A DNA stretch of 64,000 bases from Lunularia cruciata (taxonomy: Eukaryota; Streptophyta; Marchantiopsida; Lunulariales; Lunulariaceae). Position numbers and translations under genes: made by a program. Shown one piece after another: positions 3,931-29,469 of this stretch; the first letter of the stretch is position 1; every line of letters begins with the position of its first letter. Location of the stretch: assembly GCA_948567375.1 (NCBI GenBank), contig OX419756.1:54450333-54514332 (forward strand), in the 5' to 3' direction. The notes under the pieces are model-generated. The model was given only the letters and a program-made list of their open reading frames with translations, was not told where the DNA came from and ran no database searches.

Positions 3931-3933
3931 TAA

Positions 3934-5751: not shown

Positions 5752-5752
5752 A

Positions 5753-6570
5753 GATGAGTGATATATTTTGTCCATACTTGGATAAATCTATTATCATTTT
5801 CTTGAATGAATTCTTAGTTTATTACATGATGATGATGGAGCAGATATAACATCTATAAGAAATCCTCCAGATTCTATGACAAAATCAGTTGTATGCCAAA
5901 ATTTCAAAGTGTGCGTTTAGCAAGTCTAAAATTAGATTACTTGGGGCATAAAGTAAGTGCAAAAGGTATCCAAGTGTTAAAAAATAAAATAGAGATCATT
6001 AAAAAATGGAGTGTTCTAGAAGATTAAACTCAACTCAAGAGTTTCTTGGGATTGATGGGTTCTATTGTAAATTTGTCAAGGATTTCTCCAAGGTTTCATA
6101 ACCTCTAATAGCCCTACTTGAAAAGGAAAAGAAGTGGATGTGATGAACCATAGAAGAATTGAAAGATACATTACTACATGCACCAATCTTGAAATGGTAT
6201 GACCCAAACATCCAATCAAGTTGAATACAAATACATGTGTTGCAATAGAAGCAATCATATAACTTGAATCTAATGATGGATGGCACCTAATTGCATATTT
6301 CTCTCAAAAGTTGTTACCAAAAAAATGCAACTATCACACCACCAAATGAGAAGAGTTGGTCATTGTCCTTGCAACCAAGTATTGGAAGCACTATCTTGGT
6401 GAGAAAATATTTTTAGTGGAGATAGACCACAAACCTCTAGTCTACCTTGAGATACAAAAAGATCTATCTTGTTGATAGATTTGATGGGCAGAGTGAAGAC
6501 AATGGTTCAACATGATGATCAAATATGTAGAAGGCAAGAAGAAACTTGTAGATGCATTCACTTGGATGCA
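5753..6570 (+). pseudogene. RT (second part) and RNase H of element B
   Basis: Continues the RT palm: YLDKSIIIFLNEFLVY, where the YIDD-type catalytic pair has become N-E. Then the connection domain, and RNase H from about 6178, with IAYFSQKLLP, HWKHYLG-like and IDHKPLVYLE blocks to about 6450, followed by the MI-YVEGKKKLVDAF-type end. Frameshifts and stops are numerous. Confidence 0.82.
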
Positions 6571-8384: not shown

Positions 8385-8927
8385 TGTTGTACATATATAC
8401 ATCATTACACAACATACATCACTGTCAACATCATACACTTTAAAGGCATAATTCACACATAAGTCATCCATGGTCTCTAAATTGCCACAATAATCAATGT
8501 GTTCTCAACTCAAATCACACTCAATCAGATGAGTACTTGATACGTCATTAAATAATTGGCCAACAACTAGACACTGATTACAATCAAGCCACACTCACTC
8601 TAGCTAAGAGACTCCAGGTGATGCTTTTCGGCCTCTGTCTACCATAGCCAAGAACTCAAAGGCTCAACATCAAAGAAGTGAGCTCTCTAGAGTTGCACTT
8701 CAAAAGTATACCTCTTGAACTCGACCTAAGTATCCAACCTTAATGGTCCTGTTCATGGCACATCCGACATGCAAATGATAGGGCCCCATGATGTAGTCAG
8801 TACCCTGAACATGAAATTTGACCATCAACAAGTAGTCTATGAGTAACTGCCAAAATATCTATGACTACCAACACTACTACTCCAAAGTCCAAGCAATGTA
8901 GATGCAATGCTACAAATGGTGTGAGTT
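8385..8927 (-). repeat. 3' LTR of element C
   Basis: Begins TGTTGTACATATATAC on the plus strand. Bases from about 8500 onward match 26154-26580, the other LTR copy (shared landmarks TTCTCAACTCAAATCA, CTCTAGCTAAGAGA, AGTGAGCTCTCTAGAG). Confidence 0.8.
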
Positions 8928-9046: not shown

Positions 9047-9569
9047 GGCCTTCTAATTGGTGGTGAGGTCTCTCTAAGTCTAGAAAGCCATCTATTGCAA
9101 GTATATAGTATACGTTATGGTGGGAAAAAGATCAAGAGGTTGGGTGCTATCAAGCCCCATTGTTAATTGCTTTTTTGCAATCTATACCACATAAAGGATG
9201 AATTAACTATAAATCAAGTACATCTAAGACATAACCATTATACTTGAGGAACCACCATGAGAAGAAGAGTCAAACATGCCATATGCCATATGCTATAAAT
9301 AGCTATCACACACTTACATGGTACTAGCTCCACTAGAAGAGCTGCATAACATACACTACAAACTTGCATATACAAGTGCCAAGCTTGGGTCTATAGTACC
9401 ATCAATGTTTGGGAGGTGGCATGGCAAAAAATAGCACGCATGATCCTTTCAAACAACACCATCATGTCCTATCAACACAAGGACTCCAAATGGCAAAACC
9501 TCATGCATCCTCAAGACAATGTAGCCCAAGTAACATCAAGTGTTGTTGGTGTTGTATGTTGTAGATATA
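9047..9569 (-). other. 3' region of element C after integrase
   Basis: No intact frame. Minus-strand translation gives scattered remnants of the integrase C-terminal tail and presumably 3' untranslated sequence. Confidence 0.5.
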
Positions 9570-10571
9570 CATAGTCACTTAGATGAAATCAACGGATTGA
9601 GGATCTATAACCTCCTCCTCAAATGGTAGCATAGCGTAAGGTATCCCTATGCTGAGCAATCACCAAGTTCTCAAAGTCCATTGGTATCACTCTTCCAAAG
9701 ATCTTTGCACATTGAGAACATCCACTCATCTATACATCTGGATCATCCAAGTCCAACACTATAGTAGCATCTTGATGAATGGCTGCAGGTAAATATGGAT
9801 CTCATCCATAGAGTAGAAAGTAAGGAGAGAAGGATGCTAAGGAGACTTTTTGGCTGAACCAATAGCCCTTGGCCAACCACGACAACTGGAGATCTTAATC
9901 TCCCAAGTGGCCTCTCTGCAAACCATACTTCCACAATCCTCTCTTCACCATTTAAACCACTTTCTTTGCTAAGCCATCTGCCTTAGGGTGATCTCGGGAG
10001 GTAGTATGATGATCAATCAAAGTCTTATCACATAAGATCTGGAACTCCTCCAAGAACTTTATACCATGATCAGTTAACCTCAACTGGTGCACCAAAATGA
10101 CTAAGAACGCAATCTTGGAACAAGTAAGACATCATTGGATTTGTCAAGAAGTGCCACCAACTCAATCCACTTGGAGAAGTGCTCCACCATAACCAAAATG
10201 CACCAATGATGTCTTATAGTCAAAGATAAAGGTCAAGCAAAGTCCAAACTCCAGCGGTAACCCAATCCCATGATACGTAGTAAGTGCAATTATAGTATAG
10301 GAGCATTAAATGATACTCTAACTTGGTCACAAACCACACGCTTGGCAACAAACTATTGTACATTGGTCTATATACTGCGCCACCAATAATGACTCTAGAG
10401 CAAGCTATATGTATGATTTACTCCAAAATGTCCTAGCTTCTCATGAGCATGACAAACCAATTGTGGTCTTTATGAAGGAAGTAGTACTACTTGCACTCTA
10501 CCATCCTCCCATACACAAAGAAGGTGTTTGCACTCCAATTTGAACTTTTTGGCTTGTTGAAGAACATGATC
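9570..10571 (-). pseudogene. Integrase core and C-terminus of element C
   Basis: Minus-strand translation shows MVEHFSKWIELVAL near 10200 (after the first catalytic Asp), then FGAPVEV and a TDHG-like second motif near 10090. ADGLAKKVV follows near 9970, where the catalytic Glu of DGLAERVV is Lys. GYRFS and SPYFLLYG-WDP-like blocks lie near 9830 and AQHRDTLRYA near 9640. Frameshifts and stops throughout. It continues upstream at 17877, across element D. Confidence 0.78.
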
Positions 10572-11259
10572 AATGAGCTGGCATGTCTCTCACTCAAGAT
10601 GAACCTCTGATGGCTATTATGGTAGCGCACCATGGACTAAGAAGGCAAAGAACCCCAACGCCATCATACTCCTCCAAGTTTAACACTCCAAGACTCAAGA
10701 CATTGCTCACTAGAGACCTCAAAGAGAGAGATAATTGCAAATGAAAGGATGATGAGTACCTCCTTACCCCTTGTTTATATACTTGTGAAATAGTTACACA
10801 CTAAAGTTATTATTTATATAAAGTAACTCAAGTTACTATGCTAAAAATCAAGTAAAGTCAAAAAGTATAAAGGAATATCCATCCACATGTGCATATTCCA
10901 CTAAGCATGTGATCTTATCTTGACCCAATAACTAAGTCAAGGATTCCTTCACATGGGCTCCTTGGACTATAGAAGAATCCAAAACAAAAAGGCTTGTAGG
11001 CTCAAGAGTTCTCAACTCTTTCCTCAAAGCCAAACACCTAGGAATAATACCAAGTCAATACACTAGAATCCAAAATAGTGGTGTTTATCTTTTCCATTTC
11101 CTCTAAAGTAAGGTTCTCTCTATCTTAGCTATGACTAATTTAGCTAACCATGACAAATGTAGAACCATCCTTTATCTCCATATAAATAATATCTCTCAAG
11201 TATTTGTAATACCAAGCTAAATATCATAATACCACACACATGCACAAATGGTTGTTACA
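10572..11259 (-). repeat. 3' LTR of element D
   Basis: Aligns along its length with 17201-17876 and with the three solo LTRs. Its plus-strand start reads AATGAGCTGGC where the other copies have TGTGAGCC. Confidence 0.87.
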
Positions 11260-11571
11260 TTTACACCCGGACTAAGTTTTCACTTTGTCTTCAAAGTGAA
11301 GGTCTCTCTATCTTCTATGATATATCTTCAACTTATCATAGTTAATCCTATCAAAGTGTCTTCCTCCCAACTCCTTGAGATCATAGGTGTAATTGCCCCA
11401 CACCTTCTCTACTATAAAAGGTCCAAAGTACTTAGGCAAAAACTTCTTTTGCACTCTCTTGCATCAAATGGAATCAAATAGCATTACCTAATCACCTTCT
11501 GTGAAAGGCTCCACCTTCTTCTTGGCTTGTCTCTTTTCATAGCTTTTTTTTTTCCTTTGGACTTGCTCCAC
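11260..11571 (-). other. 3' end of D internal region
   Basis: Minus-strand remnants of the integrase C-terminal tail (GAITPMIS, YYLIPFDA-like pieces) and 3' untranslated sequence. No convincing polypurine tract next to the LTR. Confidence 0.45.
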
Positions 11572-12487
11572 TCAAACTATAGCAACCGCTCTTGCGTTTT
11601 CCAATTCCATGAGTTGATCGTTCCTTGACTTCTTTGCATCACCTCCTTGTGCTTTCTTCAATCTCTTATGAATGCTTTGGAGGGTAGGAAAATCAAAGTG
11701 AATAGGTAAGGTAGACTCAATGCCATATACCAATTGAAATGGAGAATATCTGGTGGGAGTCTTCATGGTTGTCCTATACTCCTACAAAACTACATGGATC
11801 CTCTTATCCCAATGATGTTTAGCTCCCTCCATTTCTGCATCTTTGGCCAACATCATGCAAAAGGTCTGATTGGTTCTCTCTGCCAAGCCATTAGAATTTG
11901 GCTTATAGGATGTAGTTACTTTATGTGTGATAGAGAAATGTCGTAGCATGGCTGTAGTGATGCTTCTTGTAAACTCTCCTCCTCTATCAAAAACCAACTC
12001 CAAAGGGAATTCAAACCTAGTGATGATGTGTTCATAAAGAAATCTACCCACTTCATCTTCATTCTTGTCCCTCAATGGTCCAGCCTCAACCCACTTGGTA
12101 AGATAATCAGTAACTACCACAATGTACCAATTGTTCCTTGGGGTTCTATTGAGAGGACCTACAAAATCAAATCCCCACTTCTCAAAAGGTCCTAGCATTG
12201 GAATTGATCTAAGTGGTGTAGTGGATGTTGACTTTTCTAGCAAAGGCTTGACAAACATGATAAGTTTTACAATAATCAAGAAAATCCTTGAAAATCCTTC
12301 TCCAATGGTAACCTGCATCTAGAATCTTGAAAGCAGTCACCTTTCTGGCAAAGTGTCCTCCACACACTAAACCTTCATGAAAATCCTTTATGAGTAGGAT
12401 AGACTCTTCCTCTCTTTGTGATAGAGTTGTTCTTTTTTGCTGAAACCATCTGCCTACTAGCATAAGGTATTGGATGATCATGCCCAT
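11572..12487 (-). pseudogene. Integrase of element D
   Basis: Three overlapping minus frames give a nearly complete integrase. The zinc-binding region (HFARKV..FKILDAGYHWRRIF..YCKTYHVCQ) lies at 12487-12209 and the core at 12318-11782. GFDFVGPLN and VFDRGGEFTR carry the two catalytic Asp; NGLAERTNQTF carries the Glu. The C-terminal TRYSPFQLVYGIES stretch is at 11766-11572. All three catalytic acids are present, but a frameshift near 12300 and a stop near 11780 break the gene. Confidence 0.9.
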
Positions 12488-12686
12488 CTTGGTCTAATTG
12501 ACTAAAAGTGCATCCTATAGCTACATAAGAAGCATTATTATAGAGGATGAAATGCTTACTCCAATCAAGTTTAGCAAGAATTGGAGCTACAACAAGGGAT
12601 TGCTTGAGCTCCTCAAAATCTTTGAGAGCCTCCTTGTCTTCCAAAATCACCATGTAATCTACACTCTTCTTCATGCAGATGGTCAA
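12375..12686 (-). pseudogene. RNase H of element D
   Basis: Minus frame of 103 aa: FEELKQSLVVAPILAKLDW, then FILYNNASYVAIGCTFSQLD (usual catalytic Asp of LCDAS replaced by Asn) and HPIPYASRQM. The frame shifts into the integrase frame near 12430, and most of the C-terminal RNase H is missing. Confidence 0.82.
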
Positions 12687-12695
12687 TGCATAAGC

Positions 12696-13484
12696 CTAGT
12701 TGGAAAATGAGAAGATGAACCTCTTATAGTACCCAAACATCTCCAAGAATTGGCATAACTTTGTCATGCTTGAAGGGAATGGAAGGTCTAAGATTTTCCT
12801 CACCTTCTCATGATCAATTGCTATTACATCCTTGGAGATGATGTGCCCCAAAAGTAGACCTTCTTCACATCCAAAAATGCACTTCTCTAGGTTGAGTGAT
12901 GCATTTGCCTCATCCAAGCATTGCAAGACCTTGATTAGGTGTTCAAAGTGCTTCTCCTTGCTCCCATAGACACAAAATTTATCAATGAAGTTTCTCACAA
13001 ATTTCCCAATGAAAGGTTCAAATACCTTGTGCATGAACCATTGGAATGTGGTTGGAGCATTAAGCTTAAAAGGCATGACCTTGAAAGCATAAGTTCTCCA
13101 AGGTGTGGTGAATGTGGTGAGTTTTTGATGCTCTGGTGCAATCTTGATTTGATTATACCCACTATAACCATCTCCAAAACTATACTTCTCATGACCTGCA
13201 ACCTCCTCCAAGATCTCATCAAGGAATGGTAATAGGTAGTAGTCCTTCTTGGTAACAAAGTTGAGCTTCTTGTAATCCACACATACCCAAATTTTGCCAT
13301 TCTTTTTCTTCACAATCACAATTGGAGACACCCATTCTAAATTCTCCACCTCAAGGATAAATCCAATCTCATTGAGCTTATCAATCTCTTCCTTCACAAC
13401 TAAAGCTATTGGTGGGCTTATGCAATGTTGCTTTTGGAGGACTTGTCTTGCATGTAACTCTGCCTCTATCTTGTGCTCCTCCAA
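12696..13484 (-). pseudogene. Reverse transcriptase of element D
   Basis: Open minus frame of 262 aa covering fingers, palm and thumb: VVKEEIDKLNEIGFI, WVSPIVIVKKKNGK, VCVDYKKLN, FGDGYSGYNQI, YAFKVMPFKLNAPTTFQ, FIDKFCVYG, LLGHIISK. The catalytic FIDD reads FIDK, so the second Asp of the active site is lost although the frame is open. A TAC-TCC junction with stop at 13492 separates it from upstream sequence. Confidence 0.92.
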
Positions 13485-13907
13485 GGTGACTTACTCCAGA
13501 CCCTTGTAACTGAAAGCAAACACGTGGATGAACTTGCAGAAAATCTCTTCAAATCTCACCATCTCCTCCTTGGTAACATTTAAACCATACTTGAGGGTAG
13601 ATAACCTCCTCTCTATCTCCTAAAGTGTTAATGGTGATTTATTTGGGTCCTTCAAAACCTTTGGCTTAGGTGCAAAATCCATAGCACACAAGGGATACAC
13701 ATCTTAATCAGATTTGGATTCAGATTCATCCTCCTTTGTGGAAGTCTCCTTTTCCATGCTTGTGTCCACTCTTGATGCTCCTTCTTCAGAATCTGATTCT
13801 CAATAATCAGAAGATGGTGTATCTGAATGTGAAGTGTTGGTGGTGTTAGTCATAAGAACTATGACTCTATGGTTTGATGGCCTAATCCTCAAGTACTCTT
13901 TGTATCA
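13485..13907 (-). other. Protease-RT linker of element D
   Basis: Acidic, Glu/Ser/Asp-rich translation on the minus strand between protease and RT. Stops present; no domain recognised. Confidence 0.5.
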
Positions 13908-14255
13908 TCAATCAGTTTTGCGTGTTGCTCTCAACCATGGCCTCCCAAGAAGTAAGTCATATCTTGAATCTTTCAAGACTTGGAAAGTCATGAGATTTTG
14001 AATTCTCATAATTGAAACTATCACTTTATCTATCACCCTTACTGGTCTAACTTGTTGCTTTTTTGCCATGCTCACCACAAATGTTGAAGGTCTTGAGGGT
14101 ATCATACCCAACTTCTTTATCAACCTTTTTGATATGGCATTCATTGCTGATCCTTCATCAACCAATGCATCCTTGATGTTGTGACCATTCACTCTCACAT
14201 CAATCTTGGAAGCATATTCATAAACTTCCCATGATGTTGGCTTGGCATCCACCAC
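13908..14255 (-). pseudogene. Aspartic protease of element D
   Basis: Minus frame of 115 aa: VNGHNIKDALVDEGSAMNAI, where the family has D-x-G-S (DDGSGVN), and YDLLLGRPWLRA at the end, the plant Ty3 protease signature. It overlaps the end of the gag frame at 14195. Confidence 0.85.
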
Positions 14256-15452
14256 CCCATTGATACAAGAGCTTTTGCCTTCTTCTTCCTCTTGCTCCTT
14301 GTAGAACTCAAACCACCTCTAAGCTCCTTTCTCAAAGTAGGATTCAAGGCAATCAATTGGCCCACTATGATGTTAGCCTTGTGACTACCAACATCCTCCA
14401 AGACATTGTAGTTCCATTGTTGCTTTAAGATCAAGAAGTCTTCCATCTTCAACTTCTTCCTTGGAGTCTTTGTTGTTGATGGTGGTGAAGTGCTTATGCT
14501 AGTGCTCCTAGTAAGCATAGGAGTATCTTGGCTAGGAGTAAATCCTTGAGAAGAGTGCAAATCCTCTACAAAACAAACTCCCTTCTTCTCTTGTGCCAAA
14601 AGATCCAAATTAAGACCCTTGGACTTTGAGCACTCTCCCTTCTCATACTTGCTCTCAACCACATCTGTAAAGGTTATCTCCTTACCTTTGTTTGGATTAG
14701 GAGGCACTTGGGTTTCAATTCCTCCCTCTTTCCCTCTATTGGCTCCTTCATAACCCCTTCCTCCATGGTAAGTGGAATTTGGGCAATTCCTTTGGATGTG
14801 ACCTCTTCCTCCACAACCAAAAACATTTCTCTCATTGAAATTGTTGGTTGGTTGGCCTCCTCTATATGGATAACTTCTATAACTCCTAGATCACCTCCCA
14901 ACATTTTGATCCACCTCTCTCTTCTCCCATAATTGCACCACATTGATCTTGAGATATGCAATTTGTTCTGTGATGGTTTGAAGTGGATCCTTTGGTGGAG
15001 GTGCAAGAATTGGAGAAACTTCTACTTGTGATGCAACCCTTGCCACCAAAGTATCAGAAGTTCCACCATACTTGTAACCTTGAGGAGGATGCATAACCTA
15101 TTTCACCACTAAATTCACTCTCATCCCCTTCCAAACTCTCCTCCATACAAATTGTGATCTTGATAGCTTCAACCTTGGAAGAAGGTTTCTCATATCTCAC
15201 CTTGCTTCTGATCTGTGGTCTCAACCCTCCCAGAAAATTCTTGGTGAGCATAGCTCATATGCCAATCATAGTAGTCTCCACATCATCTCTACCCTTCCAC
15301 AACACTATGCAAAATCTGGACTCTAACTTTTCCACTCTTTCCACACAAAATCTCACTTTCTCTCCATCTCCTTGCTTGAGAAAGGTAACCTCACTCATCA
15401 ATTTCTCATAACTCTCATTTGGAAGAAAGTTCTCAATGAGTGTTGAAGTCAA
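14195..15452 (-). pseudogene. gag of element D
   Basis: Overlapping minus frames (15452-15255, 15251-15054, 15094-14891, 15006-14674, 14707-14195). They encode FLGGLRPQIRSKVRYEKPSS, the typical helical end of Ty3 gag, then a basic and a Ser/Thr/Lys-rich region before the protease. Several frameshifts. Further N-terminal gag lies at about 15650-15460 (GKDREDVEAFVRDF). Confidence 0.78.
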
Positions 15453-17179
15453 ACTCTCCCAAGACTCTTCTTCCCCATCTCTCCTCTCTCTCTTTTGGTA
15501 TTCTGACTCATACCATGCAAGTGTTGCATACTCAAAGAAATCTAGTAATAATGAGACCCACTCATTGTTTCTTATGCAAGCTCTCTGAAGTCTCTCACAA
15601 AGGCTTCCACATCTTCTCTATCCTTGCCAAAGAAAACTGAAAGTTTCCTCATCTTAACCCCTCACTATCTTTCTTTTCTCTCAATTTTTTTCCTTTTTTC
15701 TCACTCTATACCTAATAGAGTATATACATGAATAATACCATTTGAGATTAATCCACCATAGGGAACACAAAAGGTTAAGGTTGCTTCATGATTTCTATAG
15801 CAACATCAAATCCTAGAGTGCATATTAATTGAACTCTCATGGATAGTTTATCCATAAGTTGAAAGATTATCTCCATTATTAATCTTGGGAACTAGTTGAT
15901 GAAGATGGTAGTATTTCTATAGATGTACTACGATTCTCTCCAAGATTCCTCACCAAAGTCTCCAAAACTGCTTTTACTCCACTACACTTATGTCCTTTTG
16001 GAAGTCCTCAACTCCACAAACCTCACACAACTCCTTGGTCTTAAATCTTCTCCCTCCCAATCTTGGTGAAGAATGTCCAACATGCAAACCCAAGTCAAGT
16101 AATCCTCTCCTTTCTCTTAATATCTTTCTCTCAAAGACCAATGGATATGAACTTGCCTTATGTCCCTTCTTTCTATATAGAAAGCACTTAGACTCACTCT
16201 TTCCTCCAAGTGGTGTAGGTTTTTGGATCCTCTCAACACTCTCTTCAAATTCTAGTCTAAACTCTATTTTCCTCAAATCTACCCCTAAAATCACCTCAAA
16301 CCATTAGGGAACCTTGCATAGTCTAAATTTGCACTCTTGATGACCCTCCATATTCCCAAGATGAATCTAAACACTTAAACATATTTTTTGTTGCTCTCAA
16401 ACTCCTCATGCATGAGATCTCAACTCTGCAGAATTGACCCTTCCTCACAATGTCACTCAAATCCCTAAACACAATCCTCTGAAATTTTGCCCACTTGATC
16501 ACAACTCCAAGGTTCCTTCCCTAAAAACATTTAGATGTTCTCATCAAGCCATTTGGCCTAGGCACCTTTCTATTCAACACACATATTTCAGATTTGGTCT
16601 GAAAACTACCCCCCTCACTTTAAAAACTCATAACTCTCAGTGCAAGAATGATCTTTCTCTAATTTTTGTATCAAAAGGTAGGATATAATGCACTGAATTT
16701 TCTTGGGAAGTTTCATGAAAATAATCTTAAAATTGAAGAAATTTCAAACACTATAAAATTTTCCAAAGAGCATGCAATTGCGAGAACAGTTTACCCTATC
16801 CACTTTCAAACATTCTAGCTCAGTGCACATAGTAGCTCTCACAATAATTTCAAGTATGCTTACTGAAGGATAACCCAAGCTATCATGTTTAGAAATTTCA
16901 AGTCCAGATCTCAAACTTGAGATTTTGCCCAAAATCACCTTAATCTCCAAAATTTGCAATCCACCTCACACAATCTCTCCAAATCTTCTCATGTGGACAA
17001 GATGTACAAAATCAACTCAAAGACATCATAAAGAACTATAGGGTATAAAAATGGTTCTAGTTTCTCTAACATAAGTTAAGCACTCTCCTCTCCTAAAGTT
17101 CTCTCCAAGTGAGCTCTCATAGCCTCCTTCTGTCTAATATAGAATTGTATGCAGAATATTATCTTGCCTTCCAGAGAGG
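15453..17179 (-). other. 5' part of D internal region
   Basis: Gag N-terminus down to about 15460, then about 1.5 kb of leader sequence. A minus frame at 16294-15974 (106 aa) has a KCFLYRKKGHKASSYP piece vaguely like a zinc knuckle. Its position 5' of gag makes this doubtful, and I assign no function. Confidence 0.4.
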
Positions 17180-17196
17180 TCCCGACAACAAAACCA
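17180..17196 (-). other. Primer binding site of element D (tRNA-Asp type)
   Basis: Read on the minus strand, TGGTTTTGTTGTCGGGA lies four bases after the 5' LTR. Plant elements primed by tRNA-Asp have TGGCGCCGTTGTCGGGGA; the differences are mainly C-to-T or G-to-T changes at the GCGCC core plus one missing G. Confidence 0.75.
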
Positions 17197-17200
17197 AAAA

Positions 17201-17876
17201 TGTGAGCCGGCTTGCCTCTCACTTAGGATGAACCTCTGATGGCTATTATGTTGGCACACCACGGACTAAGAAGGCAAAGAACCCCAACTCCATCATACTC
17301 CTCCAAGGCTAACACTCCAAGACTCAAGACATTGCTCATTGGAGAACTCAATGAGAGAGAGATAGTTGCAAATGAAAGCATGATGAGTACCTAATCACCC
17401 CTTGTTTATAAACTTGTGAAATAGTTACACATTGAAGTTACTATTTACTCAAGTTATTGGACTAAAAGTCAAGTAAAATCAAAAAATATAAAGGAATATC
17501 CATCCACATGGGCATATTTCACAAAACATGTGATCTTATCTTGACCCAATAACTAAGTCAAGGATTCCTTCACATGAGCTATCCTTGGACTATAGAGGAA
17601 TTTGAAACAAAAAGGCTTGCATGCCCAAGAGTTCTCAACGTTTTCCTCAAAGCCAAACACCTAGGAATTATACCAAGTCAATACACTAGAACCCAAAAAA
17701 GTGGTGCTCATCTTTTCCACTTCCTCTAAATTAAGGTCCCCTCTATCTTAGCTATGACTAAATTTAGCTAATCATGACTAATTTAGAACCATCCTTTATC
17801 TCCATATAAATAATATCTCTCAAGTATTTGTAGCTAAATATCATAATACCACACACATGCACAAATTGGTGTTACA
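17201..17876 (-). repeat. 5' LTR of element D
   Basis: Best preserved copy of this LTR: TGTGAGCCGGC ... GGTGTTACA with canonical TG...CA ends. Confidence 0.9.
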
Positions 17877-18720
17877 AGTCTCTCTCCTTGGCCCCAATTG
17901 TGCCACCCACAAGACCAATGCAAAGATAGTCCATCACTAAAACATTATCATGAATGTCTTGCTGAACTATACCACTATCTCCACTCTGTGAATCTGTAGA
18001 TGAATCTGTGACCTCAATAACTCCTCCTGTATGTGCTAAGAGAGACACCACCAAAACCTTAGAAAATATACAAAGAAAGGTAGATGCATACCAACCTAGC
18101 ATCATCTCCTCATTTGTCTCACCATTCCAACGTCCTCTGGTCTGATCCTATTGGCTAGGACATGGGTTTCTACTCAACCCATCTGCATCATAATTCACCA
18201 CTCCGTGTTTATGAATAACTATGAAATCATATTCTTGTAAAATCAAAGCACATCGTGCAAGTTTCCTTGAAAGCTTGTTGGACTCCATCAACCACTTCAA
18301 TGGCTGATGATCAATAATGAGAGTAAAAAGGTTACCAAATAAGTAACATTAGAAATGTGCTACTACTCATATTGTTGCCAAGCACTCTTCTTCATATGAA
18401 CTACTATACTTCACCTCTGCTAAATTGTTGGAGCAACTAGCGTAGGCCACCACAAACTCCTTCCCATCATCATCATGTTGGGTGAGCATTGCTCCAAGTC
18501 TCAACATACTCCAATCACTATAAACCTGAAATGGTTATCCTCTGATTGGTCCTCTCAAGATAAAGGCAAATGTCAACCTCTCCTTGAGCTCTACAAATTC
18601 TCTCTCTCTTGCTTATCTCCCCAACACCACTCATGTGTAAGCTTGGTCAGCTTCTTCAAGGCCTTGGCAATGGCATTAAATCCTCTAGCATATCAGCAAT
18701 AAAAGTTTTCCAACCCAAGG
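17877..18720 (-). pseudogene. RNase H and integrase N-terminus of element C
   Basis: Minus-strand translation near 18700-18300 gives RNase H pieces (SPQTRIDYL-like start, then VTFLLTLIIDHQPLKWL near 18300). 18105-17872 encodes IVQQDIHDNVLVMDYLCIG and ends AKERDL, the linker before the integrase zinc finger. Element D is inserted right after it; the rest of integrase is at 10571-9570. Confidence 0.7.
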
Positions 18721-18756
18721 AATGTTTGGACTTTGCTCACATCTATAGGCTAAGGA

Positions 18757-19310
18757 TTATGCACAATAACCTCCACCTTTGTTTTTTGAACACCAAGACC
18801 TCCAAATAAACCCAAATAAACCCAAATGCTCATCTTGATCATAGAAGCATCTACACTTCCTAGGATGTAATTTGAGCCCATGAGATCTCAACCTCTCAAA
18901 CACCTCCAGCAAATATCTCTCATGCTCCTCCACAATAATGTTATAGACCAAAATGATATCAATATAAAACCAAGCAAAATCTGATCCAGCTAGGATCCTA
19001 TCCATGATCTTATGGAACTCAGTAGGAGCGTTCTTTAATGTAAATGATAAGAACCTCCACTTATACAACACATCCTTACCATGAGGATCAATAACTCTAA
19101 ATGTTATCTTGGACTTATAGTCCTCCTTGATCAGCAATTGATGATATCCTGCTTGAGGATCCAAAGTATTGAAAACCTTTGCATGCTCAATCACATCAAA
19201 GATCCCCTTTGGTGTAGGGATGGCATATTGATCAGCCCTAGTCTATCATTTCATAGGATGGTAATCTCCACACATCTACCTATCTATGTAGTTGCCATGC
19301 ATATCTTTCT
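18757..19310 (-). pseudogene. Reverse transcriptase of element C
   Basis: Minus frame of 145 aa (19194-18757): FNTLDPQAGYHQLLI, KSKITFRVIDPHG, LYKWRFLSFTLKNAPTEFH, FAWFYIDIILVY, LKLHPRKCRCF. These are RT palm motifs in order. The YIDD box reads YIDI, so the second catalytic Asp is lost. Further fingers-domain pieces lie upstream to about 19310. Confidence 0.88.
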
Positions 19311-19889
19311 TGGTTGGCATCATTGTAGTTGATGCACACTCTCTATGTGAATCCTCCACCAGACTAGCCTCAAAAAGATCTCTACTCTAGCTCTAAATCA
19401 ATGCTCAGTCCATATCACTATATTTGTAAGGATGTCAAAAAATTGGTCTACCATTAGTCAACTCAATCTAGATACCATGTCCCTTTAGAGCAGCCAAATC
19501 CTTCATATTGAAGGAAAAACAACATGTGTAGCCCCTCAAGAACCTCCAAACTCTTCATCTATCCCCTCTAGTAAGCTTGGGTCCCAAATATCCTCTGTAA
19601 CTGTCATAGGAGTCAAAGATGTACTAACTAGTTGCTACATTGGGCCCTTGGAAGCAGTAGTATCATGCCCCCCAACCACTAGAGGTCCCAACCTCCATGT
19701 GAAAAACTCTCTCTGATCTGCTTGCAAGCTCCATAAGTCCTCTAACTACATCCCAAGTAGACCAAGGTAGGTGTAATCCAAGTAGACCATGGTCACCTAA
19801 ATGGACCCCAAGTAGACCACTCTCACCAATAGACATTGGATGCATCCCAACAATACCCTACCCAATCAATCCATCACCCCCAACATGTG
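19311..19889 (-). other. Methyltransferase-RT linker of element C
   Basis: Minus translation shows a 60-aa frame (19845-19663) rich in Gly, Leu, His and Ser; no recognised domain. Confidence 0.4.
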
Positions 19890-20719
19890 CTTGAATTTGA
19901 GTGGTGATGCATATCAAGCGCATCATACGCTACTTTGCCAAGCCAAGGATCACAATCTAGGTCAAATAGTTCAGATCCATAGCTTGACCTAACATTTGAT
20001 GCTTGGATACCTTTGACATTGCTAGAACAACATGTGTGAAAACCCATCGCTTGCTCTCTCTCATCGGTGTTGAAGTCCACCAATTGTTGTAACAATGAGT
20101 TCCAAACAAGTTTAGGACCTCTTTCTTGAAATGCATGAGAGTGGGAAACTCATGAGTGTGTGAAAAATAGCTTGAGGCTGTCCAACTAGGTTCACCATTG
20201 CCACAAGTGATGTATTAGCCACTACCACCATTTGAGATTGATGCCCTACATCCAAGATGTCATCAATAGTGAGGTGGTCTAGTTGTTGAATCCCATCATA
20301 AGTACGCTATAGAACCTCTTTAGATGCAACAAGAGTGGGATCATGGGCTCATCATCTTTGTCTTTGGTGGATGAACCTCTTACCCAAAGAGGTTCTATAG
20401 CATACTTATGATGGGATTCATATACATATCCCACTCTTGGTGAGTACATATCCCACTCTTGTTGCATCCAACAACACTGTAGGTCCTATCCAAGAATAGA
20501 CTTGATATGTATTCACCACCACTTGAGTGCAAGAATTACCAATCAAAAATATGTTCTCCAAAAGGTAAGTTGGAGAAATAGACTGATAAACTTGGAGATG
20601 TTGTAGTATATGTAACATCTCCTAATACACACCAAAACATGGATTTTGAAGACCCAACCTCAGCCAACCTGTGTATGTCCTTGACATAGCCATCTTGAAA
20701 GCACCACATGAATAGGACC
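19890..20719 (-). pseudogene. Cytosine-C5 DNA methyltransferase-like domain of element C, C-terminal part
   Basis: Minus-strand order: MWCFQDG (20706-20686, position of the catalytic PC motif, Cys kept, Pro lost), then SPTYLLENIFL (20579-20544, the ENV motif VI region) and YSWIGPTVLLDATRVG (20498-20451). Next come DILDVG near 20250, VGQPQA near 20170, DEREQAMGF (20065-20039) and GQAMDLN near 19990, which matches the motif IX-X end with its conserved Gln-Ala-Met-Asn stretch. These blocks occur in the right order for a bacterial-type C5-methyltransferase. Frameshifts and stops make it inactive. The N-terminal part lies at 22420-22108, across element F. Confidence 0.78.
20282..20469. repeat. Local inverted duplication
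   Basis: GAATCCCATCATAAGTACGC (from 20288) reappears inverted as GCATACTTATGATGGGATTC (20400-20419). The adjoining GATGCAACAAGAGTGGGAT reappears inverted at 20450-20469. Arms of about 40 and 19 bp, with a short extra piece in the right arm. Confidence 0.85.
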
Positions 20720-20724
20720 ATGTC

Positions 20725-20786
20725 TGTAACAATATGGAGTTTAGCGACAAAGTTAATAGGGCTAACAAAGTAGCAAATAAGTAGCT
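20725..20786 (+). repeat. 5' LTR remnant of element F
   Basis: TGTAACAATATGGAG ... GTAGCAAATAA matches the first 62 bp of the 3' LTR at 21677. The rest is deleted. Confidence 0.85.
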
Positions 20787-20848
20787 ATTGCCATAGTCCT
20801 AATAAACTGATGTTGCCATAGTCCTAATAAACTGATGTTGCCATAGTC
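20787..20848. repeat. Filler-like tandem repeat at the deletion junction of F
   Basis: CCTAATAAACTGATGTTG-CCATAGT units, 26 bp, about two and a half copies. The same words (AAACTGATGTTGCCATAGTCC) occur at 22652-22672 in element C, 1.8 kb away. Confidence 0.8.
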
Positions 20849-21676
20849 CCTGGCACCAAGCTTGCTTTGTCCATGGTCTATCATCCTCAAATTGATGGAC
20901 AAAACAAATGTGCAAATCGTACATTGGAGGATATGTTGTGCCTTTGTCAATGTCCACCATACCAATTGGGTTGAATGTCTTGTAGTTATAGAATTTGCCT
21001 ACAACAATTCCAAATGGGCAAGCATCAGATTTTCTCCTTTCTTTCTCAATTTTGGCCAAGATCCACTTGTTCCAGATTCTCTTCTTGCTCTCCCTTCATC
21101 TCAAGTTCTTCATACTTCAACATTCTTGACCACTATATCCCAATCTCTCCAACAAGCCAAATCTCACCTCCTTGTTGCTCAGAATCAATCTCACCTTTGA
21201 AGTTGGTGATAAAGTCATGCTATCCTTTGGTAACTTCCCTCTTCTACTTGATACCCAAGTTTGTAAATGTGCCCTTAATTGGATAGGACCCTTTGATGTC
21301 ACCAAAATTATCTCTCTTGTTGCTTATTGACTTGACTTACCTTACCTTGTCACATGCGTATCCATCTTGTCTTTCATGTTTCCAAGTTGAAACCCTTTGT
21401 TCCTAACCCCTCTTCCTTTTCCTCTTGAATCCAACTTCTCCCTCTTCCTGTCCCTATCAATGATCATGAGGAGTATGAAGTTGATCATATCCTTGCATGT
21501 TGCCATATTCAACAAAGCCATCACAACATATGGAGTACAAGGTCCTTTGAAAAGAGTATCTCCTTCATGATGCCACATGGGAACCTCTTTCTCACCTCCA
21601 GAATGCACAGACAGCCATCTAAGAGTTTGAAGCTTCACTAGCAACAAGGACATTACCAACTAGCGGTGGGAGAATA
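20849..21676 (+). pseudogene. Integrase end and chromodomain of element F
   Basis: Encodes TKLALSMVYHPQIDGQNKCA (catalytic Glu of DGQTERANR is Lys) and EDML, then a second frame (from about 20940) with NWVECLVVIEFAYNNS and FSPFFLNFGQDPLVP. GDKVMLSFGN-like GPY/F sequence follows near 21200, then a chromodomain with NDHEEYEVDHILA near 21455 and a decayed WKG/TWEP region to about 21620. Two or more frameshifts. Confidence 0.85.
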
Positions 21677-22102
21677 TGTAGCAATATGGAGTTCATTGAT
21701 AAAATTAGTAGGGCTAACGAAGTAGCAAATAAACAAATGAACCTAGAATATTCTAGAAGTATTTAGGAAGCTTCTTGGGAAGCTTCCCGGATAGCTTAGC
21801 TTGCACCTCAAGTAAGTAGCTTCTAAAAGGAAGCTTCTCAAAACTTCCAACTAGCTTAACTTGCACACCTAGTAAGCGGCTTCTAGAAAGAAGCTTCTTG
21901 AGAAGCTTCTTAGTTAATTTCCTTAGTGCACTCTAAGAAAGTGGCTCAAGGAAGTTTCTTGAGAAGTTTTTCAAGGGTCTTGTATGCTACCTATAAATAT
22001 TAAGCCAAAGCTCATGCTAGGCATTTAGAGTTTTCTCTCATTCAAGTGTCCCAATGTGAGCTTCTATTCTCTTATTTCTCTCCTCAATCTTGGACTTTTA
22101 CA
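21677..22102 (+). repeat. 3' LTR of element F
   Basis: TGTAGCAATATGG ... CTTTTACA, 426 bp, preceded by a purine-rich GGTGGGAGAATA. Contains a CTATAAATAT box at 21991-22000 and several short GAAGCTTC palindromes (AAGCTTCTTGAGAAGCTTC near 21890). Confidence 0.87.
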
Positions 22103-22107
22103 ATGTC

Positions 22108-22420
22108 TCTTCAGATCCTACACCCATAGCAAGGAAATGTTTGTTGGTATGGTCTTTTGGTAACCCCTAACTACTAACATCAATAATTACATAAGATACC
22201 AATCAGCCAAGTGTACCACATGATGTAGAGAGATTGGCCTAGCAATCTCATCTCTCTCCACACACAAGTACCTTTGTACTCGCATTCCTACCTATAATAT
22301 TGCAGCTAGTCTAGTGCTAATCCCACCAAACAACTCCAATAGACATACTCCCTCTACTAGATATTGCCAAGCAATGAGTGTGGTATCTAGAGGTGTCAAG
22401 GTAATTGACTCTAGATGCTC
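22108..22420 (-). pseudogene. Methyltransferase-like domain of element C, N-terminal part
   Basis: Minus frame with LELFGGIST (22339-22313), the FxGxG S-adenosylmethionine-binding motif I. After a stop, VQRYLCVERDEIARP (near 22250) corresponds to the motif II acidic strand, and VVRGYQKTIPTNISLL follows near 22160. Element F is inserted right after this, and the next conserved block (catalytic loop) is at 20706. The normal order of a C5-methyltransferase is thus complete across the two pieces. Confidence 0.78.
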
Positions 22421-22927
22421 ATCCTCACATTGGTCTCTTGTGGTATAAAGGTTCCACTCCAAGCCTATTGCACCAATCTGCATGTTGTTGCAATGCCTCC
22501 TTTGAACTCCACAATGGAACATCCAAGGTAGATGGAATGATCCTACTTGTACTCCAAATCCAAGTGATCTCCTCTAGTATTGGAGTATCCTTTGTATGGG
22601 CATTCTCCTCCAATAAGTCACAAAGCCAAGTAACAAAACTATTGAAAGCTAAAACTGATGTTGCCATAGTCCCAATAATAGCCTGAGCTCTAACCATAGA
22701 GCTACCAATTGGATGACTAGGCTGAATCTAAATAACAAGCTCTCCACACATGATGTACTATGTAGAACCACCCCTAGAGATATCTGGATCTGAAATGGAT
22801 ACCTCTCAACATTGGTCTTCCGTAACTCTAGACCAAAAATGGTAGCCTTCTCCAACATAAAGCGTTCCGTACCAGAGTCTAGTAAGACCCTATATGGTGT
22901 ATAGACCTCCCTTGAATGTCCCACCAA
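22421..22927 (-). pseudogene. Protease and protease-methyltransferase linker of element C
   Basis: Minus frame 22927-22649 starts EVYTPYRVLLDSGTERFML, with the catalytic DSG of a retroviral-type aspartic protease at about 22880-22870. It continues YPFQIQISLG. Minus frame 22697-22425 has VTWLCDLLEENAHTKDTPIL and TLDVPLWSS and leads into the methyltransferase start. The two frames overlap at a frameshift, and the C-terminal half of the protease is poorly preserved. Confidence 0.78.
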
Positions 22928-23720
22928 ACAAAAAAAATTCCCCTTTGGTTATCCAATCTTTGGTTAGACAACTCCATGTGTAAATTATGTTTGCTCAAAG
23001 GCCGGTCTAGTTGGCACCTCCTCCAATCTAGCTGTTGTTGCTTGCCATAACAATTGGTTGTTGAGTAGATTCCATGCTCCTCAACCAAGTCAACTCCACT
23101 ATCAACCACCTCTACTCTAGAATTAGGAATCACATCATCCCTACTCTCACAATGTGTGGCAGCCAATTGGAACATTGGGCCCGGATCAACTCCTAATGTA
23201 AACATGTCACTAGTTGAGAATAATTGAAAGCGCATAATCAATTGAACAACCCCCAAATTAAGCTAGACTCAATCGTTGTAGTATCAAGTGGCTGACTAGT
23301 AGGTAGTTTATCATGCACCCCATCACCACCTACCACACCTGCACTAGGATGTTTAAGAGGCATTGATGTTGTTTGTAGTGCCTCTAAGAGTGTAGAAGAC
23401 TAAAGAAGTTTGCCTCTCTACCAACCTCTCCTCTCTATGGGTCCAACTCCAATAATGCTCCTCTATGCTCATATTGCATTCTTAGTCACTATGGCATATG
23501 CATCCACCTGTGTTGCTCCGCACATGAAGTTCAAGACATCTCTATCACCCGCATAAGAAGTAGAAGCCTCAAAACCCAAATCTGATCTCCTTTGAATGAT
23601 GGCCATGCTAGCCAATCTCTACTCCAATTACTCAATCCAAATAGTCATGGTTGTATAGGAAGTAAAGGTAGGTATTGCACCCCTACTAGGTGTGGATCCT
23701 CTACTACCACCTCTACCACC
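22928..23720 (-). other. gag-protease linker of element C
   Basis: Minus frame 23256-22879 (125 aa) is polar with a Ser/Asp/Gln-rich stretch. No domain recognised. Confidence 0.4.
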
Positions 23721-25050
23721 TCATCCTTTATGACCTGGAGCTCCTCTACCACCTACTATAGTAGCCCTCCTACTACATAATTCTAGATGTAGGTCAAAGC
23801 ATCGGTCACTGGTATGACGAAATACATGGCAATGGTCACATTTTCTTTGTGCCGGCTGAGATGCACTAGAGCTATCAAGTTTGTTGCCCTTAGTGCACTC
23901 TCTCCTATGATAAGGTTCACCACAAATCCAACAAGAAACACCACCACTCATTGGATATTGTTGATGTGAAAATGAAGGTAAGGGTCTAGCTACACTAGGC
24001 CTTCCACTTGCTCCAGAAGATATGGGCTATCCACCTTGTCCTCAAAAACCAACATGGCTTGGTGCACTCTTCTACACTCTAGAAGAAGATAAAGTTGTGG
24101 ATAAGTTCTCCCTACCAAATCCATATGTCATCATTCTCTCCTCCACCATGTTGAGCTCAATATGCTTAGCCAAAGCAACGACCATTGCCAAAGTAAGAAA
24201 AATAGCAGGTAACAACATAGCATCACAAACTCTATATCATAATTCCTTATCTAATATCCCATACCAAAATGGACTTCTTGGGCCTCCATAAGTCCTTGAG
24301 TAAAACTGATCATCCATCTCATGCAAGTGTATGCCTTGCATAGGCTCTCTCTAGCATTCCATTGGAACTCTTGCATGCTCCTTAACTTGTCAACCCGTGC
24401 TCCTTGGTAGTTCTATCCCAAAGAAGAAGAACTCCACCATGGGGTTAAACCCCGGTACTACACTACCTCTTGTAGTGGTACCTCCACTTGTAGTAGCACT
24501 ATGTCCAGCTAGTGCACCTCCACTAGCTCCACCAATGCTACTAGAGTTAGAACTCATGGGTATTGCCAATCTACCCCTAGAAACCAAGCTTGAAGTGATA
24601 GAGACATAGTCTAGAGACCAATATTATCTCCATAGCTCAATCTCCTCCAAGTGAGCTCTCCTAAACTCATGGTAGTTATCTATTGGTGGACCCTCCAAGT
24701 GTTGAAACAACTCCTTCCATGCCATGAAGGGTGTGAACAAAGTCAAGTTCCGCATTTGTTGTAGGTCACACCAACTATCAAACTCCTAGATGAAGTCATC
24801 CAACTCAATGGTATCCACTAAACCATTGAGTCCACCAGAGTGATATTAGGATCCTTTGGAGGCTCCATAAATCTCATCCATGTTTCACTACAATTGTGTA
24901 GAAATACCAAGTGCACTCTAAACTAAATCAACTCTTATGTCAAACTCTAACTTAGAGTCAATCTCCTCCTTGATTGGGACCTAAGATACCAAACACCACT
25001 TTTGAGTAATCCCACTATGTGCTATAGTGCTATATCCTTTGGAATCCCCA
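23721..25050 (-). pseudogene. gag of element C with two zinc knuckles
   Basis: Minus-strand translation from about 25000 gives DFIQEFDSWCDLQQMRN, LFTPFMAWKELFQHLEGPP and YHEFRRAHLEE, a Ty3 gag capsid region. Low-complexity Gly/Ser/Thr sequence follows (24587-24390). The 23951-23721 frame has two knuckles: CWICGEPYHRREC (one residue short in the last spacing) and CDHCHVFRHTSDRC (canonical CX2CX4HX4C). Stops and frameshifts are present between the blocks. Confidence 0.82.
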
Positions 25051-26153: not shown

Positions 26154-26588
26154 TAATCAATTTGTTCTCAACTCAAATCATATTCAATCAGATCAGTGCT
26201 TGATTTATCATTCACTAATCTGCCAATAATAGGGCACTTATTGCAATCAAACCACATCCACTCTAGCTAAGAGATTCTAGGTGATGCTTGCCGGTATATG
26301 TCCACCATAGCCAAGAACCAAAAGACTCAATATCGGAGAAGTGAGCTCTCTAGAGCTACACTTTGAAAGTATACCCCCTAAACTTGACCTAAGTCTCCAA
26401 CCCTAATAGTCCCATTGATAGCACATTTGATGGTCCAAATGGTGCAAGTGAAAGTGGGCACCATGTACTCAATACCTCAATTTGACTGTCAACAAGTATC
26501 TTTGAGTAAGTACCAAAATACCTTTGATTACCAACATTACTACTCTAAAACTAGAGCCATCTAGGTTTGATGCTAAAAATGGCATGAC
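26154..26588 (-). repeat. 5' LTR of element C, truncated
   Basis: Matches 8505-8920 of the other LTR. The first about 118 bp of the plus-strand reading (the U5 end on the coding strand) and the primer site are missing. Confidence 0.78.
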
Positions 26589-26833: not shown

Positions 26834-26919
26834 TCATGTTAGAGTGATCAAGCTCTTAAATGCAATCAAACACCATTATTATTGACCCAAGATGAGTATT
26901 GATATGATGGAGTATGGTC
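26834..26919 (+). pseudogene. Integrase zinc-binding region of element A, resumed
   Basis: TCATGTTAGAGTG...AATGCAATCAAACACC...CCAAGATG aligns with 6787-6860 of element B. It continues directly from 1712, and continues again at 27606 after a solo LTR. Confidence 0.8.
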
Positions 26920-27605
26920 TATAACACCATTTGTACATGTTTGTGGTATGTGTTATTTAGTTTTGTATTACAAATACTTGAGAGATATTATTTATATAAA
27001 GATAAAAGATGGTTCTATAATAGTCATGATTAGCTGAAGTTAGTCATAGCTAAGATAGAGGAGATTTTACTTTAGAGGAATTGGAAAAGATGAATACCAT
27101 TACTTTGGATTCTAGTGTATTGACTTGGTATTGTTCTTAGGTGTTTAGCTTTGAGAAAAGAGTTGAGAACTCTTAGACCCACAAGAATGTTTATTTTTGA
27201 TTCTTCTATAGTCAAGAATAGCCCATGTGAAGGAATCCTTGACTAACTGGTTGGGTCAAGAAAAGACCACATGCTTAGAAGAATATTCCCATGAGTATTG
27301 GTATTCCTTTAATATTTTGACTTTATTTGACTTTTAGCCTAGTAACTTGAGTTACTCGTGATTAGTAACTTTGGTGTATAATTATTTCACACGTATATAA
27401 ACTACGGGTGAGGAAGTACTCATCATCCTTTCATTTACAACTATCTCTCTCTCATTGAGTTCTCTAGTGAACAATGGTTTGAGTCTTGGAGTGTTAGCAT
27501 TGGAGGAGTATGATGGAGTTGGGGTTCCTTGCCTTCTTAGTCCATGGTGCTCTACCATAATAGTCATCATAGGTTTATCTTGAGTGAGAGACAAGTCGGC
27601 TCACA
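26920..27605 (-). repeat. Solo LTR of the D family in the integrase of A
   Basis: Reverse complement of the LTR at 5064-5751: plus-strand start TATAACACCATTTGTACATG, end AAGTCGGCTCACA. No internal sequence and no clear TSD. Flanks join as GTATG...TTCAAAGTTG, matching 6868-6881 of element B. Confidence 0.87.
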
Positions 27606-28401: not shown

Positions 28402-29090
28402 TGTGAGCCGCCTTATCTCTCACTCAAGATGAACCTCTGATGGATATTATGGTAGCGCACCATGGACTAAGAAGGCAAAGAACCCCAGCTCCATCATACT
28501 CCTCCAAGACTAACACTCCAAGACTCAAGACATTTCTCATTAGAGAACTCAATGAGAGAAACATAGTTGCAAATGAAATGATGATGAGTACCTCCTCACC
28601 CCTTGTTTATATATTTGTGAAATAGTTACACACTGAAGTTATTAATTACTATAGTAACTCAAGTTACCAAGCTAAAAGTCAAATAAAGTCAAAAGGCTAA
28701 AGGAATATCCATGCTCATGGGAATATTCTCCTAAGCATGTGGTCCTATCTTGACCCAACCACTAAGTCAAGGATTCCTTCACATAGACTATCCTTGGACT
28801 ATAGAAGAATTTGAAAAAAAAAATCTTGTAGGTCCAAGAGTTCTCAATTCTTTCCTCAAAGACAAACACCTAAGAATAATACCAAGTCAACACACTAGAA
28901 TCCAAAATAGTGGTGTTCATCTTTTCTACTTCATTAAAGTAAAGTTTCCTCTATCTTAGCTATGACTAATTTTTGCTAATCATGACTAATGTAGAACCAT
29001 CCTTTATCTCGATATAAAAAATATCTCTCAAGTACATTTTATACTAAACTAAATATCACAATAACACATACATGCACAAATGGGTGTTAT
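28402..29090 (+). repeat. Solo LTR of the D family in the integrase C-terminus of A
   Basis: TGTGAGCCGCC ... GGGTGTTAT. Flanked by AGCTC on both sides (28397-28401 and 29091-29095), a perfect TSD. The sequences outside join as in element B near 7660 (GTAAGCTCAGACGTCATTTTAT). Confidence 0.9.
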
Positions 29091-29095
29091 AGCTC

Positions 29096-29469
29096 AAACT
29101 TCATTTTATCGGACCTTTTCTCATCATTTGTTGAATGAGCATAATGGCCTATCACCTCAAGCTATCCCCACACATGAAGATCCATCCATATTCCATTGCT
29201 ATGCAGACATGCACCCAGACCGCCCCACTTTCCAGCCATACAAAAAGTTAGACCTTGTCCAACACTCATTGATTGCACAAAGGAATATGAAGTGAAATAC
29301 ATTTTCCAAAATGCATATGTGGTACCCGCCATCCGCATGTGGAATATCTCATACATTGGAATGATTATCCATTATATGAGGCAACATGAGAGCCCATAGC
29401 TAACTTGACCAATGCGTCAATGTTAATACAATTTTTTGAGCAACATCTTTGCAACGAGGATAATTCTTC
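29096..29469 (+). pseudogene. Integrase tail and chromodomain of element A
   Basis: Aligns with 7665-8009 of element B and, in reverse, with 63280-62950. PTFQPYKKLDLV near 29215 leads to a chromodomain remnant (EYEVKYIFQNAYVVPAIRMW near 29282) that ends in a TWEP-like position. Frameshifts present. Confidence 0.78.

Follow-up and report, generated by a model that had tools for sequence, protein, structure and literature searches.

A predicted DNMT3-type methyltransferase beside Gag and protease, before a readthrough-type stop, in a Ty3 retrotransposon family of Lunularia

Why would a retrotransposon carry an enzyme that methylates DNA? The question is raised by element C, a decayed copy within a 64,000-nucleotide stretch of the Lunularia cruciata genome (contig OX419756.1, positions 54,450,333 to 54,514,332; the window). 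C derives from a Ty3/gypsy long terminal repeat (LTR) retrotransposon; the copy is old and dead, lies on the minus strand at about 26582-8385 and is broken by nested insertions. Of its identity and family we are practically certain. An earlier note, made from the letters alone, had placed cytosine-C5 methyltransferase motif blocks, in order and on the minus strand, between the LLDSG protease and the Ty3 reverse transcriptase (RT), and these blocks are indeed present. The explanation that we favour, and regard as likely taken whole, is that C is a dead copy of a Ty3 family that encodes a DNMT3-type enzyme together with Gag, ahead of a readthrough-type UAG.

The relic by itself proved nothing; the methyltransferase was established by a profile of its relatives. 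Pfam scans of the relic's open reading frames (ORFs) and read-through pieces returned no PF00145 up to an E value of 10 (most weak matches being removed by the HMMER filters), and when the relic methyltransferase region was used to search proteins, nothing reached 1e-3 among 418 candidates. Against the PDB, the C-terminal part gave unrelated weak matches only and the N-terminal part reached DNMT3A only at E 1.1, behind an unrelated match at 0.23. The RT region of the relic retrieved a Marchantia protein, P0002, bearing both PF00145 and RVT_1. A search with the methyltransferase part of P0002 yielded 24 proteins at E <= 0.01 among 1,108 candidates, query included (16 from Marchantia polymorpha, one from Calypogeia fissa, one from Sphagnum fallax and six without organism); 18 of the 24 carry PF00145 in precomputed annotation, and relatives with protease, methyltransferase and RT parts were identified. 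A profile of 14 relatives, the window excluded, was then run on the six reading frames of the window. By this profile the relic region was judged to be a METHYLTRANSFERASE, with six minus-strand pieces and one plus-strand piece covering model positions 1-339 and a best score of 98.5 bits, against at most 5.7 bits in 40 Markov-resampled windows and 0 in the reversed window. Searches with the relatives using tblastn place the methyltransferase pieces at 22408 to 19918. Thus, a cytosine-C5 methyltransferase does lie between the protease and RT of a Ty3 element, as had been claimed. The hidden Markov model search proposed at the time fared less simply: PF00145 misses the relic, whereas intact relatives pass it and their own profile matches the relic. 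The pieces are as follows.

22106-22390, minus strand: methyltransferase N-terminal piece with motif I LELFGGIST and VERDE (profile 98.5 bits, model positions 1-95)
20725-22102, minus strand: LTR element E nested in the methyltransferase, 1,378 bp, with TG...CA ends and a GACAT duplication at 22107-22103 and 20724-20720
20648-20724, minus strand: motif IV block RWLCQG, PCQG in the relatives (10.2 bits over 20725-20648, model positions 95-120, frame-0 reading)
20448-20657, minus strand: middle of the methyltransferase with LLENI (motif VI) and LLDATRVG (56.2 bits, model positions 118-187)
20314-20442, plus strand: inverted segment with motif VIII, reading DATRVGSWAHHLCLWWMN (plus-strand profile match, 34.3 bits)
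19918-20333, minus strand: C-terminal pieces with DEREQAMGF (frame 0) and LGQAMDLN (frame 1) (52.5 bits at 20333-20124, 38.4 at 20149-19940 and 22.8 at 20028-19918)
19675-20022, minus strand: end of the methyltransferase and ORF1 tail (tblastn of P0007 residues 1171-1268)

With several in-frame stops, frame breaks, a nested LTR insertion and an inverted segment, this is a dead copy, in agreement with the earlier judgement that the relic is inactive. The coordinates first given for the domain, 22420-22108 joined to 20719-19890, do contain the methyltransferase; they skip the nested insertion at 22102-20725 and an inversion of about 100 bp. The WCFQ first read as the catalytic region lies in a neighbouring frame, and the homologous catalytic block is RWLCQG, in frame 0 at about 20695. 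The extent of the inversion is given by a host copy, L023, in which positions 5175-5275 map inverted onto 20320-20420 at 89%. Inverted repeats of 35 and 22 nt (I1 and I3) bracket the inverted piece at 20287-20471 of the window, and the whole resembles a local template-switch or foldback rearrangement.

Judged by sequence, the element's enzyme is a cytosine-C5 methyltransferase of the DNMT3 type, and not of the bacterial type first suggested. In a PDB profile search, DNMT3A (E 1.6e-22) and DNMT3B come closest among solved enzymes, followed by 4onj (1.7e-11), the tRNA enzyme DNMT2 (6.6e-9), DRM2 (1.3e-8) and, for bacterial enzymes, HhaI (6.3e-7). The PDB lists 4onj as 'DNA methyltransferase'; we take it to be a DRM. 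The DRM type is defined by a rearranged motif order. Here the order is unrearranged, with motif I first in the relic and in six aligned relatives, so the enzyme is not of that type. Motifs I, IV (PC), VI (ENV), VIII and IX-X stand in order in intact members, and the PC, EN and HRxR residues are identical in six diverged relatives. Five of six proteins (P0012, P0015, P0021, P0022 and P0007) and L008, an element described below, pass the curated PF00145 cut-off of 22 bits; P0025 does not reach it, nor does the relic itself. The host has separate exons of its own, one with DRM2 as best solved match (L011) and one with DNMT3C/3A (L010). These DRM and DNMT3-like exons match the element's enzyme only at 27-50% over short stretches of 15-129 amino acids, and the capture therefore looks old.

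The remainder of C has the build of a Ty3/gypsy element: protease before RT, RT-RNase H before integrase, and a pair of LTRs. The LTR pair sought from the 3' end of the element is real (8491-8919 against 26154-26582, 76% identical). Its features, other than the methyltransferase, are as follows.

26154-26582, minus strand: 5' LTR of C, matched part (76% identical to 8491-8919; Kimura two-parameter distance, K2P, 0.254 over 419 sites)
23259-24881, minus strand: gag region, broken (tblastn of P0007 residues 1-517, 39%)
22772-23062, minus strand: aspartic protease region with LLDSG (tblastn of P0007 residues 580-673, 40%)
19629-19637, minus strand: readthrough-type stop TAG CAA CTA (UAG-CAR-YYA) at the ORF1/ORF2 junction (pattern match)
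17878-19608, minus strand: RT and RNase H region (RVT_1 at 8.1e-14 on 18757-19242; matches to P0001 and L008 ORF2)
10567-17877, minus strand: nested insertion of Ty3 element D, which parts RNase H from integrase in C (LTRs 10574-11259 and 17203-17876, 88%)
9532-10571, minus strand: integrase region of C (P0001, 61% over 146 amino acids; L008 ORF2, 57% over 182 amino acids)
about 9220-9355, start estimated, minus strand: remains of a PHD finger 3' of the integrase (alignment to L008 ORF2 that reaches residue 1034)
8385-8919, minus strand: 3' LTR and end of C (LTR match 8491-8919; L023 alignment)

L023 can be aligned with C over 26463-8385, with order kept and 73-82% DNA identity in long pieces, and in this alignment C resumes on both sides of nested D. 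The PHD assignment is anchored by PF00628 at residues 990-1034 of L008 ORF2. The observed/expected CpG ratio is 0.12 in the coding parts of C, 0.25 in the window and 0.39-0.47 in 20 host loci, which is heavy CpG loss with age.

C is one of thousands. We searched the assembly of the window's genome (565,766,749 bases, 74 contigs) for 24-base patterns with up to two mismatches. The methyltransferase pattern, taken from the catalytic site, matched 4,109 times, the protease pattern 4,069 times and the RT pattern 5,335 times, while the backward controls gave no match. Twenty loci were sampled from the methyltransferase matches, mostly chosen for long open frames and with the methyltransferase present by choice. 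All 20 have the order gag, protease, methyltransferase, RT, integrase and PHD, with all six domains found in 18 and the PHD finger in 19. A second sample of 20, drawn at rough intervals along the RT list, has the methyltransferase upstream of RT in every locus; this list consists of 150 scored among 36,636 first-look candidates and therefore leans to a young subfamily. Contig C1 was surveyed over its first 16.85 Mb: of the 55 exact protease matches there, 42 have an exact match to the RT pattern no more than 6 kb away, with spacings of 2,362-4,174 (2,616-2,672 in 37 of them) and none near the 1,650 expected if the methyltransferase were absent. Thus, copies in which protease and RT adjoin, which the earlier note had named as grounds for dropping its claim, were not seen in either set, and the order protease, methyltransferase, RT that it had hoped for is that of the host copies. 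The LTR pairs, comparable in 16 of 20 loci, differ by a K2P of 0.002-0.075, so these copies are young. The longest open frames round host matches are an ORF1 of 1,448 amino acids (commonest long value 1,428) and an ORF2 of 1,037, none being designated a working copy. The many young copies, the Gag-side placement before a readthrough-type stop and the PHD finger after the integrase had not been foreseen.

In this family, ORF1 comprises Gag, protease and methyltransferase and ORF2 comprises RT, RNase H, integrase and PHD, in one frame split by a UAG. The relic stop occupies the position that TAGCAGCCA has in host copies, and its flanks are similar to theirs; the relic frames are broken nearby. 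UAG-CAR-YYA is described as an essential context for tobamovirus readthrough (PMC2754532). Two such patterns occur in the 64-kb window where 5.3 are expected, so the match at the junction is not explained by a common word. A TAG followed by a CAR-YYA hexamer, mostly CAG CCA, is found in 38 of 40 host loci (19 of 20 in each sample), and of the 19 hexamer-bearing loci in the methyltransferase sample, 18 have the stop and the RT match in one frame. In L008, ORF1 ends at TAG CAA TCA and ORF2 continues in frame. Six relatives (P0007, P0012, P0014, P0015, P0016 and P0021) end within about 140 residues of motif X, as would be expected from a stop at the close of ORF1, P0016 being partial according to its source. 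Readthrough at this UAG is predicted, and we think it very likely.

To what extent is the methyltransferase maintained? Among host loci of the commonest length (18 of 20, 153 pairs), the ratio of nonsynonymous to synonymous change (dN/dS) is 0.39 for the methyltransferase; for the other parts, in young copy pairs, it is 0.25 for RT, 0.27 for gag, 0.31 for protease, 0.48 for PHD and 0.72 for integrase. The integrase value (2.04 on transversions) was set aside for a mean dS of only 0.019, as was that of PHD, which rests on 144 bases. As the loci had been selected by the length of their open frames, and most change arose after insertion, dN/dS is a weak test. The invariant PC, EN and HRxR residues, together with protein identity over the long term, appear to be a stronger sign of constraint: among the matches listed, host methyltransferases are 72-74% identical to that of Calypogeia over the full domain, and that of L008 is about 51% identical to it.

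Several observations weigh against the explanation that we favour. The RT pattern exceeds the methyltransferase pattern by 1,226 matches, among which domain-less related copies could be hidden, and on C1 no exact RT match lies within 6 kb of 13 of 55 exact protease matches and no exact methyltransferase match within 3.5 kb of 40 of 96. Exact-match lists cannot separate domain loss from mutation; such unpaired protease and surplus RT matches can stem from mutated or cut copies, and domain-less copies may also contribute. When transversions alone are counted, the methyltransferase has a ratio of 0.66 and RT one of 0.28, so that constraint on the methyltransferase looks weaker. The CARYYA context is missing in one locus of each sample (L020 and L053). 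Five Marchantia gene models (P0002, P0006, P0008, P0011 and P0013) and one from Sphagnum (P0023) run from the methyltransferase into RT or RNase H, and must therefore be spliced models or lack the stop. Finally, the predicted structure of P0012 is too poor for use (mean predicted local distance difference test, pLDDT, 41.8).

Two explanations would remove the enzyme from the element altogether. That decayed sequence resembles C5-methyltransferase motifs by chance fits the failure of Pfam to find anything in the relic pieces; given the distance between profile scores and controls, and the alignment of L023 over the methyltransferase region at 81-89% DNA identity, we reject it as having a negligible probability. 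That a host DNMT3 gene or pseudogene was struck by Ty3 insertions, leaving the methyltransferase outside the element, would suit a locus that is a nest of insertions. It is hard to reconcile with the same domain order at 20 of 20 loci, the domain before RT at 20 of 20 loci of the RT sample and again in L008, and the low, patchy identity of the host's own DRM and DNMT3-like exons; it is refuted by the genome-wide copies and retains only the slightest probability.

What, then, might the enzyme do? Retroelements with such a layout make much Gag-protease product and little RT-integrase product, and package the two together. Here most ribosomes would stop at the UAG and some would read through, so the methyltransferase would be made at Gag-protease levels, end in the particle and be cut free by the protease. 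Since the enzyme shares ORF1 with Gag and protease, ahead of a readthrough-type stop, we infer that it is packaged and acts on complementary DNA (cDNA). In the particle or on nuclear entry, it might methylate the new cDNA de novo, and the methylated copy might then resemble host heterochromatin, two steps of which we are less sure; the PHD finger may guide integration. That the enzyme is packaged and acts on cDNA of the element itself has, in our view, a little less than an even chance. In a rival account the enzyme works in trans, on chromatin round new insertions or across the host genome at large; the integrase's PHD finger picks the site, and cDNA self-methylation is a side effect. This account draws on a PHD finger that follows the integrase in L008 and in 19 of 20 host loci and survives as remnants in C, and on thousands of copies as possible enzyme sources; expression in a polyprotein with Gag favours action inside particles instead, and we rate it as unlikely. 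Less likely again is that the domain is kept for a non-DNA role, be it RNA methylation, RNA/DNA binding or a structural part in the particle. The weaker constraint on transversions would agree with such a role, as would a tested Symbiodinium LINE DNMT that did not methylate DNA in yeast and for which an RNA role was raised (PMC5890265). The identical PC, EN and HRxR residues argue against it, as do the nearest solved relatives, DNMT3A/B, which come ahead of the tRNA enzyme DNMT2.

Returning to a packaged enzyme that acts on cDNA, we put forward, as a tentative and rather doubtful extension, a land-plant family whose particles would hold a DNMT3-type enzyme at Gag stoichiometry via a leaky stop of the tobamovirus type and deliver cDNA already methylated. 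If so, the host would have to live with a second, parasite-owned source of de novo methylation, and the enzyme and PHD finger may steer new copies into silent chromatin and help to build it. Such an element would be a genomic parasite, and one that may put chemical marks on its own DNA.

The relatives outside the host genome bear on the age and spread of this arrangement. In a tree of RT-integrase (8 rows), C groups with P0001, P0002, P0006 and P0023 (100/99; P0023 fills only 15% of the columns), with L008 outside. In a methyltransferase tree (19 rows), C falls within a set of liverwort and moss rows (86/99), on a long branch that allows membership of the set but no position within it, and L008 pairs with P0021 (99/97). 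Both trees separate L008 from C and the liverwort and moss set. L008 (CADCWO010000201.1) is a contig of a Synechococcales metagenome-assembled genome that contains a eukaryote-like Ty3 element. This element encodes a DNMT3-type enzyme and has two ORFs, both open and in the same frame, gag-protease-methyltransferase (its start cut by the contig end) and then RT-RNase H-integrase-PHD; because of this content, we take it to be a likely eukaryotic, probably algal, contamination of the cyanobacterial genome. A search of bacterial genome contigs with query A2 returned L008 and one 34% actinobacterial match, L009. IMG/VR gave no match to P0012 and, with query A2, seven contigs at 25-36% identity.

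Two proteins depart from the common plan. P0022 (JGI, 1749 amino acids) has the order RT-RNase H-methyltransferase-integrase-PHD, and the methyltransferase, sitting elsewhere in a Ty3 element, may therefore have moved or been taken up twice. P0025 (661 amino acids) has a more distant methyltransferase, 30% identical to that of P0012, followed by an apparent RT start, without a Pfam match, and suggests a wider family.

Elsewhere in the window, the LTR of D, about 690 bp, recurs at 5064-5753, 26901-27605 (inverted) and 28402-29110, and a chromovirus end lies at 62916-63434 on the minus strand, with a Tf2-1-like SH3 domain (PF24626) and a chromodomain (PF00385). Ten window ORFs compared with Pfam, nine of them outside 8-30 kb, gave this chromovirus end, an integrase zinc-binding piece at 6.6 kb and RT at 12.7-13.5 kb; beyond those, the scan gave one weak SCAMP match (E 0.068) and nothing more. 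An Rfam scan of the whole window had no match at gathering scores, and one stretch compared with plasmids had none.

How does this family compare with known systems? DNMT-bearing Ty3 elements have been described in one charophyte (PMC5890265). According to one commentary, land plants, such as tracheophytes, lack transposons that bear a methylase (PMC6338049). We recognised no report of DNMT-bearing Ty3 elements in land plants in literature searches, a weak negative that leaves subscription literature uncovered; such elements are now found in two liverworts (Marchantia and Calypogeia), a moss (Sphagnum) and the window's own genome. Because the copies in this genome are many and young, the benefit to a retrotransposon of methylating DNA becomes testable in a living plant, and a definite prediction, that the enzyme is packaged, follows from its position with Gag upstream of a readthrough-type stop.

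The precedents in dinoflagellates and charophytes named in the earlier note were borne out (PMC5890265). SymbioDIRS-Dnmt3 and the Symbiodinium LINE-DNMT are likewise retrotransposons with a captured DNMT, and for the SymbioDIRS enzyme the authors' test showed CG methylation; they are a DIRS element with tyrosine recombinase and a LINE, whereas the present family is Ty3 with an integrase (PMC5890265). The same work showed that CG can be methylated de novo by retrotransposon DNMTs, and put forward methylation of cDNA (PMC5890265). The plant host proteins PpDNMT3a/b share the DNMT3-type domain and unrearranged order but carry a C-terminal DUF3444 as reported, whereas here the domain is fused to Gag-protease (PMC6453930). 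As in tobamovirus-type readthrough, a UAG and then CAR YYA stand between two in-frame ORFs; unlike there, the predicted readthrough stop parts Gag-protease-methyltransferase from RT-RNase H-integrase-PHD, and gypsy-type rice elements have been cited as readthrough candidates (PMC2754532). The closest counterpart is KnitGypsy-Dnmt3 of the charophyte Klebsormidium nitens, an LTR Gypsy element with a DNMT3 for which purifying selection is reported (Ka/Ks < 0.2); both have a DNMT3-type domain with unrearranged motif order and conserved key residues within an LTR Gypsy polyprotein (PMC5890265). It has a charophyte host and fewer copies than the Symbiodinium elements, against about 4,100 catalytic-site matches here, and the word PHD is absent from the text on it, whereas a PHD finger follows the integrase here (PMC5890265). 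As described, its DNMT belongs to the Pol polyprotein ORF (PMC5890265); in the present family the enzyme lies in ORF1, with a UAG before RT. What appears to be new here is the placement of the methyltransferase in ORF1 with Gag and protease, before a tobamovirus-type readthrough context.

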